Below are positions 3,365 to 16,170 of a stretch of DNA of 39,846 nt, in pieces; position 1 is the stretch's first letter, and each line of letters begins with the position of its first letter. The position numbers were made by a program, and so were the translations under genes. The stretch spans positions 1 through 39,846 of IMG/VR virus record IMGVR_UViG_3300042305_001747; one strand, given 5' to 3'. Below the pieces are notes generated by a model that searched no databases, had not been told where the DNA came from, and saw nothing but the letters and a program-made list of their open reading frames with translations. This DNA is from a virus.

Positions 3365-4198
3365 ATGTATAGTCAATATCAAATAACAATAAATAATTTT
3401 ACGGGACAAACACCTTGTAACGGTTATTATGTATATACTGGATTAACAACAAATATTAATAATGCTGGTTTTATAAATGAAATCACAACTCTAATACCAA
3501 TTGTTAATGGATATGTATTTACAATTGAATTATTAAGTTCAATTTCAAAAATATATTTATTTATTGAACACTGTGATGGACATGTTAATTCAGTTCCAAG
3601 TACCACACCTAAATTACAAGGTGGGTATCAAATTGTATCAGTTAATTTAACATGTAGTGATTGTTATGGAATACCATCAACTACACCTTCCGCAACACTA
3701 CAAACAACTCCATCAACTACACCTTCCGCAACACCACAAGCAACTCCATCAACTACACCTTCCGCAACTCCATCAACTACACCTTCCGCAACACCACAAG
3801 CAACCCCATCACCAACACCATCTATTACCCCATCGATAACACTTTCATTAACACCATCTGTTACCCCATCACTAACACCATCTGTTACACCAACTAATTC
3901 CTTAACACCATCTGTTACACCTTCTATTACCCCATCATTAACATCTTCTCCAACACCTTCTTTAACACCAACCCCTTCCACAAGTGAAATTTGTTGTAAA
4001 ACTTGGAGACTTACCGATTCAGGTGCTCACTATATATTTAATTGGATTGATTGTAATAATGTTTCACAGACTTGGTTCGCAGAAGGAACACCAGTATCAC
4101 CAATATCAAATGATGTTTGTGCGTGTCAAACTCCTTATATAAATACCCCACCCCCAAGCGGTTGGTCTGTTACTCTATTAAGCAATACTTGTCCATAG
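3365..4198 (+). CDS. TPS-repeat virion-surface protein 3
   Basis: The product is 277 residues. Residues 1-100 are a beta-rich domain with [14 protein letters not shown] and TCSDCYG, matching the N-terminal domain of the 2227 gene in pattern. Residues about 103-210 are a long linker that begins with [11 protein letters not shown]-type units and changes to [13 protein letters not shown]. The C-terminal module of about 65 residues ([10 protein letters not shown]...CNNVSQTW...VCACQ...SNTCP) matches the module repeated in the 1-2198 protein. The linker thus has two repeat flavours, suggesting assembly from pieces. It is probably a virion-surface fibre or decoration protein. Confidence 0.75.
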
Positions 4199-6424: not shown

Positions 6425-6448
6425 TTCATATATATGTTAATATATGAA
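6425..6448 (+). promoter_or_regulatory. AT-rich hairpin covering the resolvase start codon
   Basis: TTCATATAT (6425-6433) and ATATATGAA (6440-6448) are perfect inverted repeats around a 6-base loop. The ATG at 6444 lies in the right arm, so folding would hide the start. It is made only of A-T and few G-C pairs and is therefore weak; it may equally be a protein-binding palindrome. Confidence 0.35.
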
Positions 6449-7049
6449 CAATAAATTTAAAAATTCACCCAAAATTTTGGGTTTGGACATAAGTACAAAA
6501 ACCGTTGGGTTTGCATTATTTGATTTAAATAATTCTAAACTATTGGAATTAACGCATTTTTCACCAAAAATCAAACCACAACCAGAAGATAAAATTGAAG
6601 AGTTAATAAAAAAAGCGGACGCATTTAAAAAACACTTGGAAAATTATAAAGATATTGGTATCACTAGAGTTGTTATTGAAGAACCCCTTTTGAATTCAAA
6701 CAATATCTATACCGTTGGAACTTTAATTAGATACAACACAATGATTTTAAAATCATGTTATGATATTTTAAATATTGTTCCCACTTTTATATCAACATAT
6801 AACGCAAGAAAATACGCATTTCCATCTTTAATTGGAAAAAATGAAAAGGGTAAAAGTGTTTTATTTGGTGGGTTACCAAAAAATATTGATAAAAAACACT
6901 TGGTGTGGGAGAATGTAAATTCTGTTTGTCCCGAAGTTAAATGGATTTACAATAAAACAGGTGAATTAAAAAAAGAAAACTACGACATGTCTGATGCTGC
7001 AACCGCGGTTATTGGTTATGTCAATATGCAAAAATCAATTGTTGAATAA
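6444..7049 (+). CDS. RuvC-like Holliday junction resolvase / RNase H-fold nuclease
   Basis: The product is 201 residues. The N-terminal strand ILGLDISTKTVGFALFD carries the first acidic residue of the RNase H/RuvC fold. VVIEEPLL near residue 76 gives the second (Glu), and YDMSDAATAVIGY near residue 183 gives the C-terminal Asp. This matches the acidic active site of RuvC-type enzymes. Such phage proteins resolve branched replication and recombination intermediates before packaging. It heads a run of DNA-processing genes (primase, nuclease, gp47/gp46 homologues), which fits this role. The ATG chosen is the first in frame after the preceding gene. Confidence 0.75.
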   Translation: MNNKFKNSPKILGLDISTKTVGFALFDLNNSKLLELTHFSPKIKPQPEDKIEELIKKADAFKKHLENYKDIGITRVVIEEPLLNSNNIYTVGTLIRYNTMILKSCYDILNIVPTFISTYNARKYAFPSLIGKNEKGKSVLFGGLPKNIDKKHLVWENVNSVCPEVKWIYNKTGELKKENYDMSDAATAVIGYVNMQKSIVE

Positions 7050-7054
7050 TTTTT

Positions 7055-7085
7055 TTTGTTTTTCATTGTTTTTTTTGTATATTAT
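7055..7085 (+). promoter_or_regulatory. Bacteroidota-type promoter upstream of hairpin leader
   Basis: TTTG at 7055-7058, a 19-base spacer, and TATATTAT at 7078-7085 match the -33/-7 pattern of Bacteroidota vegetative promoters. Transcription would begin near 7091-7093, immediately before two hairpins and the primase gene. Confidence 0.6.
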
Positions 7086-7091
7086 GAAACA

Positions 7092-7165
7092 TAATAAGTG
7101 TTAAAGATAAATATATCTTAACACAAGGTGGGTGGTTTTTGGTGGAAACCCCCACCTTTTATTTT
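7092..7165 (+). ncRNA. Putative short structured RNA / attenuator leader
   Basis: The predicted transcript start is followed by two adjacent hairpins. The first is GTGTTAAAGATA / TATCTTAACAC (7098-7124, one bulge, 4-base loop). The second is the GC-rich terminator-like hairpin at 7125-7158. The product would be about 70 bases and almost fully structured, with no start codon for a plausible peptide. It could be a free small RNA or an attenuated leader for the primase operon. This rests on sequence pairing only; no family is recognised. Confidence 0.4.
7125..7165 (+). terminator. Strong intrinsic terminator-like hairpin before the primase gene
   Basis: AAGGTGGG-T-GGTTT (7125-7138) pairs with AAACCCCCACCTT (7146-7158) over 13 base pairs with one bulged T and a 7-base loop, followed by a T-rich stretch. 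It is the most GC-rich hairpin seen in the window. It sits after a promoter and before the primase ATG at 7200, so readthrough or a second start is needed for primase expression from this promoter. Confidence 0.7.
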
Positions 7166-7199
7166 TGGTTTTTCAATTTTTTTTCCTTATACTTTATTT

Positions 7200-8138
7200 A
7201 TGTCAAGTAAAAACTCTGAATATAAACCAATCGTCGATATTTTAATAGATATATTTGGAAACTATGACACGCACAATGATTATCGACATCAAATTTCATT
7301 TGATTGTCCGGTATGTTCTCATGAGATTAAGGGTCTGGATAATGGTGATGGTAAAGGTAATTTAGAAATTAACTACAAAAAAAACGTATTTAAATGTTGG
7401 TCTTGCGGTGATACTCACGATACACATGGTTCAATATATAAGTTGATAAAAAAATACGGTAACCAAAAACACCTAAAAAGATACGAATTATTGATGCCTG
7501 AAGAAGTCGAAGTTTTAGTTAAACCAAAAAAAGAAATAATATTACCAAAAGAGTTTATTTCAATGTATGGTCTAAGTGATGCATTTAAAAAAACACATTA
7601 TTATAGGGAATCAATTGGATATTTAAGAAATAGAAACATTACCGATGATATAATTAAAAAATTTAATATTGGTTTTGCATATGAAGGATTATACTCAAAT
7701 AGAATAATTATACCTTCATATGACCAAAGAAAAAAATTGAATTATTTTATTGCTCGTTCTTATTTACCAAGAACAAAAATGAAATACCTTAACCCATCAG
7801 TAGAAAAAGAAACCATTATTTTTAATGAATCTTTGATTGATTGGACCAAAAAAATATATTTAGTTGAAGGTGTTTTTGATTCTATTTTTTTAAACAATGC
7901 GGTACCATTGTTAGGTAAACATTTACCCGAATCTTTATTTAAAAAGATATATGATTTAGGTTGTGAAGTAACGATTATCTTAGATGGTGATGCTTGGGAC
8001 AATACTGAAAATTTATATCACAAAATGAATTGTGGAAAATTATTCGGTAAAATAAATGTTGTTAAATTACCAAAAGATAAAGACATTGCGGACTTACAGG
8101 GTAATTTAACTGAATATAAAGAATTTAAATTAGATTAA
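7200..8138 (+). CDS. DnaG-type DNA primase (CHC2 zinc finger + TOPRIM)
   Basis: The product is 312 residues. It synthesises RNA primers for lagging-strand replication. The zinc-binding domain shows CPVC near residue 34 and CWSC near residue 70. The TOPRIM domain shows YLVEGVFDS (conserved Glu) and IILDGDAW (Asp-x-Asp). The length is close to T4 gp61. An upstream in-frame GTG at 7128 would add 24 residues encoded by the terminator hairpin, so the ATG at 7200 was preferred. It ends directly against the next ATG at 8139, implying co-translation with the nuclease gene. No helicase domain is fused, so a separate helicase is expected elsewhere in the genome. Confidence 0.85.
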   Translation: MSSKNSEYKPIVDILIDIFGNYDTHNDYRHQISFDCPVCSHEIKGLDNGDGKGNLEINYKKNVFKCWSCGDTHDTHGSIYKLIKKYGNQKHLKRYELLMPEEVEVLVKPKKEIILPKEFISMYGLSDAFKKTHYYRESIGYLRNRNITDDIIKKFNIGFAYEGLYSNRIIIPSYDQRKKLNYFIARSYLPRTKMKYLNPSVEKETIIFNESLIDWTKKIYLVEGVFDSIFLNNAVPLLGKHLPESLFKKIYDLGCEVTIILDGDAWDNTENLYHKMNCGKLFGKINVVKLPKDKDIADLQGNLTEYKEFKLD

Positions 8139-11061: not shown

Positions 11062-13415
11062 AAGAAAAATCGACAAGCTATGTTAACCCTTACATTAAAG
11101 TAACATGGCAAGATACTCATGAAAATTTTACATCAGAAAAAATTAATCGTGTAAAATCATATTTTCAAAAAAAATACAACACAAGGTATGTACAAATCAT
11201 AACCAAAGTGATAACCAATGAAGATAATTCAAAGTTAGCATCATTGGATATTTCTGAAAGTATATCAGATTTAAATTATCAAAAAATCTTGATGACTGAT
11301 TTCATTAAAGAAAACGGTATACAAGTTTCTATAGATAAACTAAATAGTTTAGACAATAAAGTAAACGAAGAGTTTATAAAGAAAAATGGTGATAAAATTA
11401 AATACAACAAATGGTATATAAAGAAAGTCGAATTTTCAAATTTCCTATCATTTGGTAGTCAAAATGTTATTGATTTTACTGAACTACCCGGTATAACTGT
11501 TGTTGAATCATCACCAAAAAATTTTGGGGGTAAATCCACTGCAACAGTTGATTTGTTATTATTTTTATTTTTTAACAAAACAACAAAAACAAAAACAAAT
11601 TCTGAAATTTTTAATAGATTTACAGATAATGATGATTTAAGTGTTAAGGGTTACATTACCATTGATAATGATGATTATGTCATAGAAAGAACTGCAGTTA
11701 GAAAGAAAACAAAGTCTGGTGAATATAACGTTTCAAGTAAATTGGAATTTTTCAAAATCAAAGAAAATGGTGAAATTGAAAATTTAACGGGCGAACAAAG
11801 AAGAGAAACTGAAGACTTTATCACAAAAGCAATTGGTTCTGAAGAAGATTTCTTGTCCACCATATTAACAACCGGAAATAATTTAGAAGAACTGATTGAA
11901 TCTAAACCTACTGCAAGAGGCATAATCTTAACTAAATTTTTAGGTTTAGAAATATTAAAGGATAAGGAAGAAATATGTAAATTAATTCAAAGTGAGTGGA
12001 GTAAAAAATTAATATCAAATACCTACAATATTTCTGAGTTGGAGTCCACAAACGAAAGTCTTAAAGAAAACCTTGAAACCAACAAAGAAGAGATTAAAAA
12101 ATTAGATAAAGAAATCAAATTAAATCAATCTACTTTAGTAAGTGTTCAATCAAAAAGAGATATTTGTTTATCTAAAAAGAATAATGATGTTGACCAAGAA
12201 TTGATAAAAACAAATGTAGACCAACTAAATTCAGATGTTCTTAAATTAAAAAAATTAAGTAAATCTTTGTTGGACCAAGCAAATGAAGTTTCAGTTATTG
12301 AACCATCAGAATATTACCATGAGGATGAACATCAATTATTAAAAGATGAGATGGAAGGTATTAAAATTGAAGGTGGCATTAATAAAAATACTATAGAAAG
12401 AAACGAATCATTAATTAAACAATTAGAAGAAGGTCAAATTTGTCCAACATGTAATAGGGCTTTAGAAGATGTTGACCATAGTGATGAAATTAATAAATTA
12501 AAAGAATTGGTTGCATCAATTAAAGAAATCCAAATCGAGTCACGTAATAAGTATATTGAATTAAATGAGAAAGAAAAAAAGTGTGCCGATTTGAAAAAAC
12601 AATTTGATGAGTATGAAAAAAATAAATTGAAAAAGGCCAGATATGAATTAGAATACCAACAAAAAGAATTGGAAATTAATTCTATACAATTAAAAATAAA
12701 TAATTACGAGAAGAATAAACAAAAACTTATTGAGAACCAAGAATTGGACGCGGAGTCATTTAATCTTAATACACAAATTGAAAGTTTAACTGCCACTATT
12801 AGATATCAATCATCTACCATTGAAAGATTAAACACTCAAAATGAAAATATCTTAAGTAAGATAGAAACCAATGATGGTTTAATTAAAAAAATAAAAATTG
12901 AGAACGATACACAAGCGATTTTTAAAACATATTTAACCGTTTTTGGTAAAAATGGGATATCAAAAATAATACTAAAAAATATGGTACCACTAATAAATCA
13001 AGAATTATATCGACTTTTAGTTGATAGTTCCCACTTTATTTTAGAGTTAAATATCAATGAAAAAAATGAAGTTGAATTTATTATGATTGATACGGAAACA
13101 AGAGTAATTAAACCATTAAATTCTGGTTCAGGATATGAAAGAACGATTTCTTCGTTGGCATTAAGAAGTGTATTAACTAAAATATCTTCATTACCTAAAC
13201 CAAATATAGTGGTAATGGATGAAGTATTTGGTAAAATTGCCGATGAAAATTTAGATATGGTCGGTGAATTTTTCAAAAAAATTAAAGATTATTTTGAACA
13301 CATATTTGTAATATCGCATAACCCGTTGATTAGAAACTGGTCAGACAATTTAGTTATGATAAAAAAGGAAGAGAATATTAGTTCAATTGATTATGTGACA
13401 CCTAAAATTTCTTAA
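11049..13415 (+). CDS. SbcC/Rad50/T4 gp46-like ATPase with N-terminal extension
   Basis: The product is 788 residues. The ABC-ATPase core starts near residue 123 (VEFSNFLSFGSQ). Walker A is SPKNFGGKST near 155-164, Walker B and the catalytic Glu lie in IVVMDEVFG near 718-726, and the signature is NSGSGYERT near 690. Long coiled coils flank a zinc hook, CPTC, near residue 463. It forms the end-processing recombination complex with the gp47-like product. Two oddities stand out: about 120 residues precede the ATPase, absent from T4 gp46, and the first Gly of Walker A is replaced by Ser. GKST itself is intact, so activity is expected. Confidence 0.88.
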   Translation: MDKIKEKSTSYVNPYIKVTWQDTHENFTSEKINRVKSYFQKKYNTRYVQIITKVITNEDNSKLASLDISESISDLNYQKILMTDFIKENGIQVSIDKLNSLDNKVNEEFIKKNGDKIKYNKWYIKKVEFSNFLSFGSQNVIDFTELPGITVVESSPKNFGGKSTATVDLLLFLFFNKTTKTKTNSEIFNRFTDNDDLSVKGYITIDNDDYVIERTAVRKKTKSGEYNVSSKLEFFKIKENGEIENLTGEQRRETEDFITKAIGSEEDFLSTILTTGNNLEELIESKPTARGIILTKFLGLEILKDKEEICKLIQSEWSKKLISNTYNISELESTNESLKENLETNKEEIKKLDKEIKLNQSTLVSVQSKRDICLSKKNNDVDQELIKTNVDQLNSDVLKLKKLSKSLLDQANEVSVIEPSEYYHEDEHQLLKDEMEGIKIEGGINKNTIERNESLIKQLEEGQICPTCNRALEDVDHSDEINKLKELVASIKEIQIESRNKYIELNEKEKKCADLKKQFDEYEKNKLKKARYELEYQQKELEINSIQLKINNYEKNKQKLIENQELDAESFNLNTQIESLTATIRYQSSTIERLNTQNENILSKIETNDGLIKKIKIENDTQAIFKTYLTVFGKNGISKIILKNMVPLINQELYRLLVDSSHFILELNINEKNEVEFIMIDTETRVIKPLNSGSGYERTISSLALRSVLTKISSLPKPNIVVMDEVFGKIADENLDMVGEFFKKIKDYFEHIFVISHNPLIRNWSDNLVMIKKEENISSIDYVTPKIS

Positions 13416-13439
13416 ATTAATAATTTTTTCGTATCTTTA
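13408..13439 (+). promoter_or_regulatory. Bacteroidota-type promoter before clpP-like gene
   Basis: TTTC at 13408-13411, a 20-base spacer, and TATCTTTA at 13432-13439, ending 13 bases before the ATG at 13453. The -33 element is imperfect. It resembles the site before the sigma-factor gene (CGTATATTTAC). Confidence 0.45.
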
Positions 13440-13452
13440 CAAAAAAAACAAT

Positions 13453-14124
13453 ATGGACAGTAAACAATATCGTGATTTTGGTCTTTTTGCCAAAGACAAA
13501 GGAGTAAGTGGAATGGGGTTACATTATTATGGAAAACAGATTGAAGATAGTCTTACCCCCTATATTTTAGAGGAAAGACAAATGAACATTACCGTAATGG
13601 ATGTCTTTTCAAGATTAATGATGGAAAGGATAATATGGGTAGCGGGTCCTGTTAATGATAATATGTCGACCGTTGTTCAGGCTCAATTAATGTTTTTGGA
13701 TAGTTTAGATAGTACTGACATAACCATGCACATTGATAGTCCCGGTGGTTCTGTTAAATCGGGGTTATCCATGGTGGATGTTATGGAGTATATACATTCT
13801 GATATTAGGACAGTCAACACTGGTATGGCGGCATCTATGGGTTCAATTCTATTAGGTGCGGGCACAAAAGGTAAAAGATGTTCTTTGAGATTCTCAAGAA
13901 CAATGTTACACCAATCTTCTGGTGGTTTTGAAGGTAATATCCTAGACGCAAAAATAAACATGATTGAGTGGGAAAAACTTAATAAAATTCTTTTTGAACT
14001 ATTGGGTGAATATTGTAATAAACCCGCTGAACAGGTGATGAAAGATGCTGAGAGAGATATGTGGTTATCATCGTCAGACGCATTGAATTATGGTATTATT
14101 GATGAAGTAATTCGAAAAAAATAA
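13453..14124 (+). CDS. ClpP-like serine protease
   Basis: The product is 223 residues. The ClpP fold is clear: PVNDNMSTVVQAQLMFLDS, HIDSPGGSVKSGLSM, then the catalytic Ser in GMAASMGS (about residue 128), His in MLHQSSGG (about 153) and Asp in DAERDMW (about 202), followed by ALNYGIIDEV. The whole triad is present. In phages ClpP-like proteins often serve as prohead maturation proteases, but here no capsid gene is adjacent, and association with a host Clp ATPase is the alternative. It has its own promoter-like sequence. Family certain; role uncertain. Confidence 0.88.
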   Translation: MDSKQYRDFGLFAKDKGVSGMGLHYYGKQIEDSLTPYILEERQMNITVMDVFSRLMMERIIWVAGPVNDNMSTVVQAQLMFLDSLDSTDITMHIDSPGGSVKSGLSMVDVMEYIHSDIRTVNTGMAASMGSILLGAGTKGKRCSLRFSRTMLHQSSGGFEGNILDAKINMIEWEKLNKILFELLGEYCNKPAEQVMKDAERDMWLSSSDALNYGIIDEVIRKK

Positions 14125-15360: not shown

Positions 15361-16170
15361 ATGACTAAACTGATTTTAATTAATACCGAAGAAATCCAAA
15401 ACTACATCAAAGACATTAGAAAAATTAAGGTTATATCCCATGAGAGACAAAATGTAATATTTAAAAGGTTATCAGATAAATCAATTAATAAAACTGAAAG
15501 ACAATCACTATTAAATGAACTTGTGGTTGGTAATTTAAGATTCGTAATTAGTGTGGCTAAGTCTTACCAAAATAATGGTATGGAATTAATCGATTTAATA
15601 TCCGAAGGTAATTTGGGTTTAATTAAGGCGGCAGAAAGGTTCGACCCAAATAGTGGGTATCGTTTTATATCCTACGCTGTTTGGTGGATTAAACAATCCA
15701 TTATGTCGTCTTTAAATGAGAATTCTAGAATGATAAGGTTACCATCAAATATCATTCAAGACAATAATAAGAAAAAAAAGAACGAAACGTTCACAGAAAC
15801 CCAATTTTTTATAAATTATGACGAAAGTGATGGTGAGGTTATTTTACCACATTGTGTCAATTTACACAATGAAATAAATGAAGATGGTGAACAACTTTTA
15901 GACACAATACCGAATCCAAATGCGGAAAATCCAGAGGACATTCTGAATACCCCCGAAGAAATTAAGAAAAGAGTTTCAATTATGTTGTCTGTTTTAGATG
16001 ATAGAGAAAAAGTAATCATTGAAAAATCATACGGATTAAATGGGGTCGAAATGAATTTGGAAGATTTAGGGGAAGAATTTGGATGTACAAAAGAAAGAAT
16101 CAGACAATTAAGAGATAAGGCACTTAAAAAATTAAGAAACGATAGTTACGGACTATTAAACTATTTATAA
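15361..16170 (+). CDS. RpoD-like sigma-70 family factor
   Basis: The product is 269 residues. Region 2 is complete: ELVVGNLRFVISVAKSYQNN, ELIDLISEGNLGLIKAAERF and YRFISYAVWWIKQSI (2.3-2.4). Region 3 begins at RMIRLP. Region 4 holds LEDLGEEFGCTKERIRQLRD, the helix-turn-helix that reads the -33/-35 element. The large acidic region 1 is short, as in Bacteroidota factors. An in-frame ATG at 15313 would add 16 residues but overlaps the promoter, so 15361 was chosen. It should bind host RNA polymerase and redirect it, perhaps to the TATTTATAA-marked genes; that target is a hypothesis. Confidence 0.9.
   Translation: MTKLILINTEEIQNYIKDIRKIKVISHERQNVIFKRLSDKSINKTERQSLLNELVVGNLRFVISVAKSYQNNGMELIDLISEGNLGLIKAAERFDPNSGYRFISYAVWWIKQSIMSSLNENSRMIRLPSNIIQDNNKKKKNETFTETQFFINYDESDGEVILPHCVNLHNEINEDGEQLLDTIPNPNAENPEDILNTPEEIKKRVSIMLSVLDDREKVIIEKSYGLNGVEMNLEDLGEEFGCTKERIRQLRDKALKKLRNDSYGLLNYL
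16162..16170 (+). promoter_or_regulatory. TATTTATAA motif overlapping the sigma gene stop
   Basis: Exact TATTTATAA whose last three bases are the sigma-factor stop codon. It ends 11 bases before the ATG at 16182. Confidence 0.4.

Follow-up and report, generated by a model that had tools for sequence, protein, structure and literature searches.

The DNA analyzed here, referred to as the window, is a stretch of 39,846 nucleotides that makes up an uncultured virus record from IMG/VR (IMGVR_UViG_3300042305_001747). It carries a gene for a RuvC-like Holliday junction resolvase followed on the same strand by a gene for a DnaG-type DNA primase, and the short interval between the two contains a pair of abutting hairpins with a U-tract behind the second, as well as two putative -7 promoter boxes, one ahead of the hairpins and the other just ahead of the primase start codon (Table 1).

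Table 1. Positions in the window of the predicted small RNA, its parts and the neighboring genes
Feature	Position	Strand	Basis
RuvC-like Holliday junction resolvase, upstream gene	6444-7049	+	phrog_159, E 4e-07
Putative -7 box TATATTAT of the small RNA, TAnnTTTG-like	7078-7085	+	Sequence; published flavobacterial box position; relatives
Predicted small RNA: short 5' leader, two hairpins, U-tract; about 70-75 nt	7090-7166	+	Fold; covariation in relatives; covariance model
Hairpin 1, 11 bp, variable stem	7098-7124	+	Fold z -4.7; pairing and covariation within the window's clade
Hairpin 2, intrinsic terminator stem	7125-7158	+	Fold; terminator scan; double-sided changes in the main clade
Loop motif at the top of the terminator hairpin, UGGUGG in the window	7140-7145	+	Two alignments; 48 distinct sequences
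Terminator U-tract TTTTATTTTT	7157-7166	+	Sequence; T-tracts in relatives
Putative primase -7 box TATACTTT, at -12 from the ATG	7188-7195	+	Conserved position in 43 sequences
DnaG-type DNA primase, constant downstream neighbor of the RNA	7200-8138	+	phrog_47, E 5.6e-41; Pfam DNAG_N

In the predicted fold, the stem of hairpin 1 is interrupted by one bulge and closed by a loop at 7110-7113, while hairpin 2 forms 15 bp in the minimum-energy structure, with a single bulged U at 7133, and runs directly into the U-tract. Both hairpins lie, by sequence and by fold, exactly where a preliminary description of this DNA had placed them. The segment 7092-7170 folds with an energy of -28.9 kcal/mol, compared to -15.7 +/- 3.0 kcal/mol for dinucleotide shuffles of the same segment (z -4.35), and none of the 200 shuffles folded as well; taken singly, hairpin 1 gives a z of -4.7 and hairpin 2 a z of -2.5. 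Hairpin 2 has the makeup of an intrinsic (Rho-independent) terminator, namely a GC-containing stem with a U-tract directly after it, and it came out at the top of the list in a terminator scan of the first half of the window. The fold and this rank both bear out the earlier claim that hairpin 2 is a strong terminator.

Relatives of the locus were collected by scanning IMG/VR with the primase, which brought in 17 and then 80 loci on contigs of up to 288 kb and, with the window counted in, gave 48 distinct primase-upstream sequences. The layout upstream of primase is near-universal in this set: a -7-like box, hairpin 1, hairpin 2, a T-tract, a second -7-like box and then the ATG. Cultured phages are distant as judged by primase, the best being Flavobacterium phage immuto at 34.6% identity, and no close DNA relative of the window was found among phage records. 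Members of the main clade begin with a conserved 5' segment, GGACGGGAC, followed by a hairpin 1 that is often GAAA-capped, a linker, GUUUGGUUGGU, a hairpin 2 capped by UGGUGU, and a run of 8-9 T residues. The window belongs to a second clade that is without the 5' segment and the linker and that has the same two hairpins and loop. The two clades are linked by locus L070, which combines a GAAA-capped hairpin 1 of the main-clade type with a hairpin 2 of the second-clade type. At one other locus, L069, decay of the element has left just a plain terminator that lacks the UGGUG loop.

A covariance model built from the main clade, with the window held out, recovers members of the second clade at the correct place. 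The best match of the window to this model is at 7090-7163, with a score of 16.8 bits and an E value of 0.22 that is weak on its own. A pattern scan that made no use of primase gave 78 model hits (a few of them on contigs that are copies of loci already found through primase), and a primase homolog starts 28-69 bases downstream in 77 of the 78. The lone exception is L120, where an aminotransferase-like gene (12187-13700) with its own promoter-like box has been inserted between the element and primase; despite the insertion, primase keeps its own TATATTTT box. Upstream, the neighbor varies among relatives: the RuvC-like gene directly precedes the element in the window and in L011, and another gene intervenes in L001 and in the L002 group. 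Whole-length searches of 18 records gave a single clear copy (E below 1e-4) in 14, of which one has a second, marginal match as well; record G001 has a marginal match only. Bacterial and archaeal genomes gave 46 pattern hits, the likeliest of which, including those on Prevotella and Bacteroidia contigs, produced no match to the covariance model; the other hits, mostly in other phyla, were taken as chance.

The preliminary description had proposed covariance analysis in related phages as a check, and the outcome is strongly positive both for the main clade and for the window's own clade. In an alignment of 35 rows, 91.2% of the cells at paired positions form standard pairs, and changes on both sides occur in 17 of the 22 pairs, amounting to 204 cells versus 72 in shuffles. 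The covariation score of this alignment is 0.737, compared to 0.12-0.262 when the 3' partners are slid out of register. The helix of hairpin 2 by itself has double-sided changes at 9 of its 10 pairs in the main clade. Within the window's clade, 94% of the hairpin 1 cells are paired, with a covariation of 0.498 versus at most 0.136 in the slid controls; for hairpin 2 of this clade, MAFFT shifts the 3' arm by one position, and the compensatory changes were read by eye. G-U pairs are frequent, accounting for 32 of 35 and 26 of 31 cells at two pair positions, which fits an RNA of the + strand rather than a DNA hairpin. The structure is thus kept through compensatory changes, as expected of a stand-alone small RNA gene. 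Judged from these sequence comparisons, the loci share a demonstrated conserved RNA structure on the + strand, with a conserved loop and a fixed site before primase.

In the sequences compared, no part of the predicted RNA is as conserved as its terminator loop, an unusual feature. Every row of the 35-row alignment has UGGUGU, with both stems variable, as do 45 of the 48 distinct primase-anchored sequences; the exceptions are the window itself (UGGUGG), L038 (CGGUGU) and L069, where the element is lost. Loop conservation was taken only from the primase-anchored sequences, because the pattern used in the primase-independent scan itself demanded GTGGTGT. The first five bases of the loop are predicted to be unpaired in nearly all of the elements, and the UGGUGG of the window is partly paired in its predicted fold. 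Some 95 terminator-like hairpins found elsewhere in six related phage records have GAAA, TTTT, TTAA and similar loops, and among the terminator-like hairpins of these records UGGUG loops occur at the element site only, arguing that UGGUGU is no general terminator feature in these phages. The sequence UUGGU also fits the YUNR U-turn known from the loops of antisense RNAs.

The promoter called host-type in the preliminary description needs to be recast. A promoter scan listed no E. coli-type TTGACA/TATAAT site that stands out at this location, and only a Bacteroidetes-type box makes a promoter here plausible: TATATTAT matches the TAnnTTTG box of Bacteroidetes and Flavobacterium in part (4 of 6). 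The flavobacterial box sits at -12 to -5 (PMC9723704), and the same geometry predicts a start near 7090 in the window, close to the 7092 given earlier. A TAnnTT(T/A) box also precedes the conserved 5' segment in 33 main-clade sequences, its first base being in most cases 13-16 bases ahead of that segment. The 5' end of the small RNA is predicted to be near AGGACGGGAC, and if the host reads these boxes as flavobacterial -7 boxes are read, we infer that the RNA would start at its conserved 5' segment. The second -7-like box lies directly 3' of the terminator, and in 26 of 43 sequences its first base is at -12 relative to the primase ATG. Because of this spacing, primase probably has its own promoter, with an mRNA start at or beside the ATG, that is, a leaderless or near-leaderless message.

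Several further observations concern other features of this phage group. A TATATTT-type box is found about 12-14 bases before the ATG of several genes (window 7188-7200, and also in G014 and G015), which suggests that leaderless mRNAs occur in the group. The window encodes a sigma-70-type factor (15361-16170; Pfam Sigma70_r2 and r4, phrog_351) with reciprocal-best-hit orthologs in six related records, and this phage-encoded factor may be what reads the -7-like boxes. A ClpP-like head maturation protease (13453-14124) likewise has reciprocal-best-hit orthologs in six related records. In much of the main clade (L083, L041, L045, L092), a GGCAACTAAT box is found 35 bases upstream of the -7 box. 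It was rejected as a regulator site: G014 has only one match with this context, and the box often overlaps the end of RuvC and is absent from the window's clade.

The preliminary description offered two readings of the hairpins, a small RNA of about 70 bases or an attenuator of the replication operon. Of these, the small RNA has become the better supported through the covariance results, and the attenuator has been weakened. An attenuator or leader would act in cis, with a protein or RNA on the UGGUGU loop or on hairpin 1 deciding read-through into primase, and the close spacing to primase in 77 of the 78 hits, the single clear copy per record and the constancy of primase while the upstream gene changes could all be understood in this way. 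We nonetheless regard it as rather unlikely, because the second -7-like box stands between the terminator and the ATG at a near-fixed distance and because no competing fold is apparent. When the 3' arm of hairpin 2 is kept from pairing, each of the 35 folded elements loses 12-20 kcal/mol, and a mutually exclusive antiterminator fold was found in none of them. The inserted gene of L120, with its own box, also argues against read-through from the element into primase, which has retained its separate box there. At the other extreme, the element might be a terminator that does no more than insulate one transcription unit from the next, the promoter-like box ahead of it being a stray one. Hairpin 2 is indeed a strong terminator, and in Flavobacterium phage immuto, an isolated distant relative, a plain terminator is all that precedes primase. 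Such a terminator would however leave unexplained hairpin 1 and its covariation, along with the conserved 5' segment and linker of the main clade, and the conserved loop is missing from other terminators of the same phages; we consider this explanation improbable.

A further alternative is an RNA that binds protein or takes part in replication, either with its loop or hairpins bound by a phage or host protein or as a transcript that primes replication or forms an R-loop at an origin next to primase. The constant site next to primase would suit this role, and hairpins that bind protein also typically combine a conserved loop with a variable stem. However, no candidate protein is known, six related records have no consistent GC-skew extreme at the element, and the G-U rich stems argue against an origin hairpin at the DNA level, so that we view this explanation as unlikely.

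The explanation that we prefer, and to which we assign about an even chance on the sequence evidence, is a stand-alone, intrinsically terminated and probably regulatory small RNA of roughly 70-75 nt that acts in trans through its terminator loop, with primase separately promoted. The element would be a small gene of its own, consisting of a Bacteroidetes-like promoter and two abutting hairpins, the second of which is the terminator, and primase would be transcribed from the second promoter, probably without a leader. We infer transcription from both promoters, termination, and action in trans via the loop. The RNA itself would be the functional product, with the near-invariant single-stranded UGGUG(U) loop as its working site and the stems as a scaffold, since stem sequence drifts freely while pairing stays. 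A scaffold with an exposed conserved loop, together with a predicted promoter and a terminator of its own, is what one expects of a trans-acting small RNA. The loop would start base pairing with another RNA at a C-rich stretch whose core is ACACCA, probably in a host RNA met during infection; a host RNA or a protein is a possible partner. Counting against action in trans is the tight linkage to primase, which could point to a role in cis. The UGGUGG of the window, with its partial pairing in the predicted fold, also speaks against the preferred explanation. In a more speculative version, which we think has little chance of being correct, the element represents a widespread phage RNA family whose terminator doubles as an effector: the UGGUGU loop, joined in the main clade by the GGU-rich linker, would capture a universal host RNA feature as the phage takes over a Bacteroidetes-like host when replication sets in. 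That feature might be the CCA end of tRNAs (C-A-C-C-A pairs with UGGUG) or some other abundant RNA.

Searches of the phages themselves gave no sign of a target. Among 1175 predicted phage genes from seven records, the start regions contain ACACCA 19 times, versus a mean of 17.75 for permuted 6-mers; in the same start regions it recurs in no orthologous family above permuted controls, and no cis-encoded complementary target of the RNA was found. Some primases begin with ATGAACACC, only in part of one clade. Genes for Thr-Pro repeat proteins, in which ACACCAA is abundant (up to 332 copies per strand of a record), were considered as targets and rejected because codon choice explains the motif; in G015, the observed count was 639 versus 627 expected from the marginals. 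Long proteins of this type are encoded in the window at 147-2198, 2227-2985 and 3365-4198, all three with phrog_15511 matches, and G015 (L289-L290) contains at about 29023-43089 a single ORF of about 4689 amino acids with 901 Thr-Pro dipeptides.

Several known RNAs resemble the phage element in part. Yfr1 and similar short bacterial small RNAs consist of two hairpins around an invariant single-stranded motif. The phage element shares with them the short length, a predicted promoter of its own, a second hairpin that is the terminator, an invariant unpaired motif and variable stems, but its invariant motif is the terminator loop rather than the linker, and it is phage-borne, tied to primase and unrelated in sequence. 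C4-type and other phage antisense RNAs are small structured RNAs that act through loop pairing, the same kind of mechanism as proposed here, although the present element has neither an Rfam match nor a cis-encoded complementary target. In the T-box antiterminator, a UGGN bulge pairs with the NCCA end of tRNA, and the exposed UGGU of the phage element could similarly pair with a tRNA 3' ACCA end; the phage element is however without a specifier stem, a T-box antiterminator or an Rfam match, and its motif is in a terminator loop. Against Rfam release 15, the window had no match at the gathering threshold and seven relatives had none at E values up to 1, and other comparisons of relatives gave sub-threshold matches only. 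One resemblance of this kind was to NsiR1 (RF02399): a few members have a CCCCAG/CUGGGG terminator stem and a U-tract that are like its 3' half, but the best score of 28.7 bits is below the gathering score of 39, and the loop and 5' part do not match.

No published description of this RNA family was found in the literature searched, coverage of which was partial. The element is a new RNA family, not in Rfam, and belongs to a kind that is already known, the phage small RNA. Descriptions of conserved small RNAs from lytic phages are few, and the searches turned up none from the uncultured group studied here. A structured RNA that is kept beside primase, with stems that drift and a loop that is nearly frozen, suggests an important function in infection, and the six bases of the loop offer a testable site for that function.
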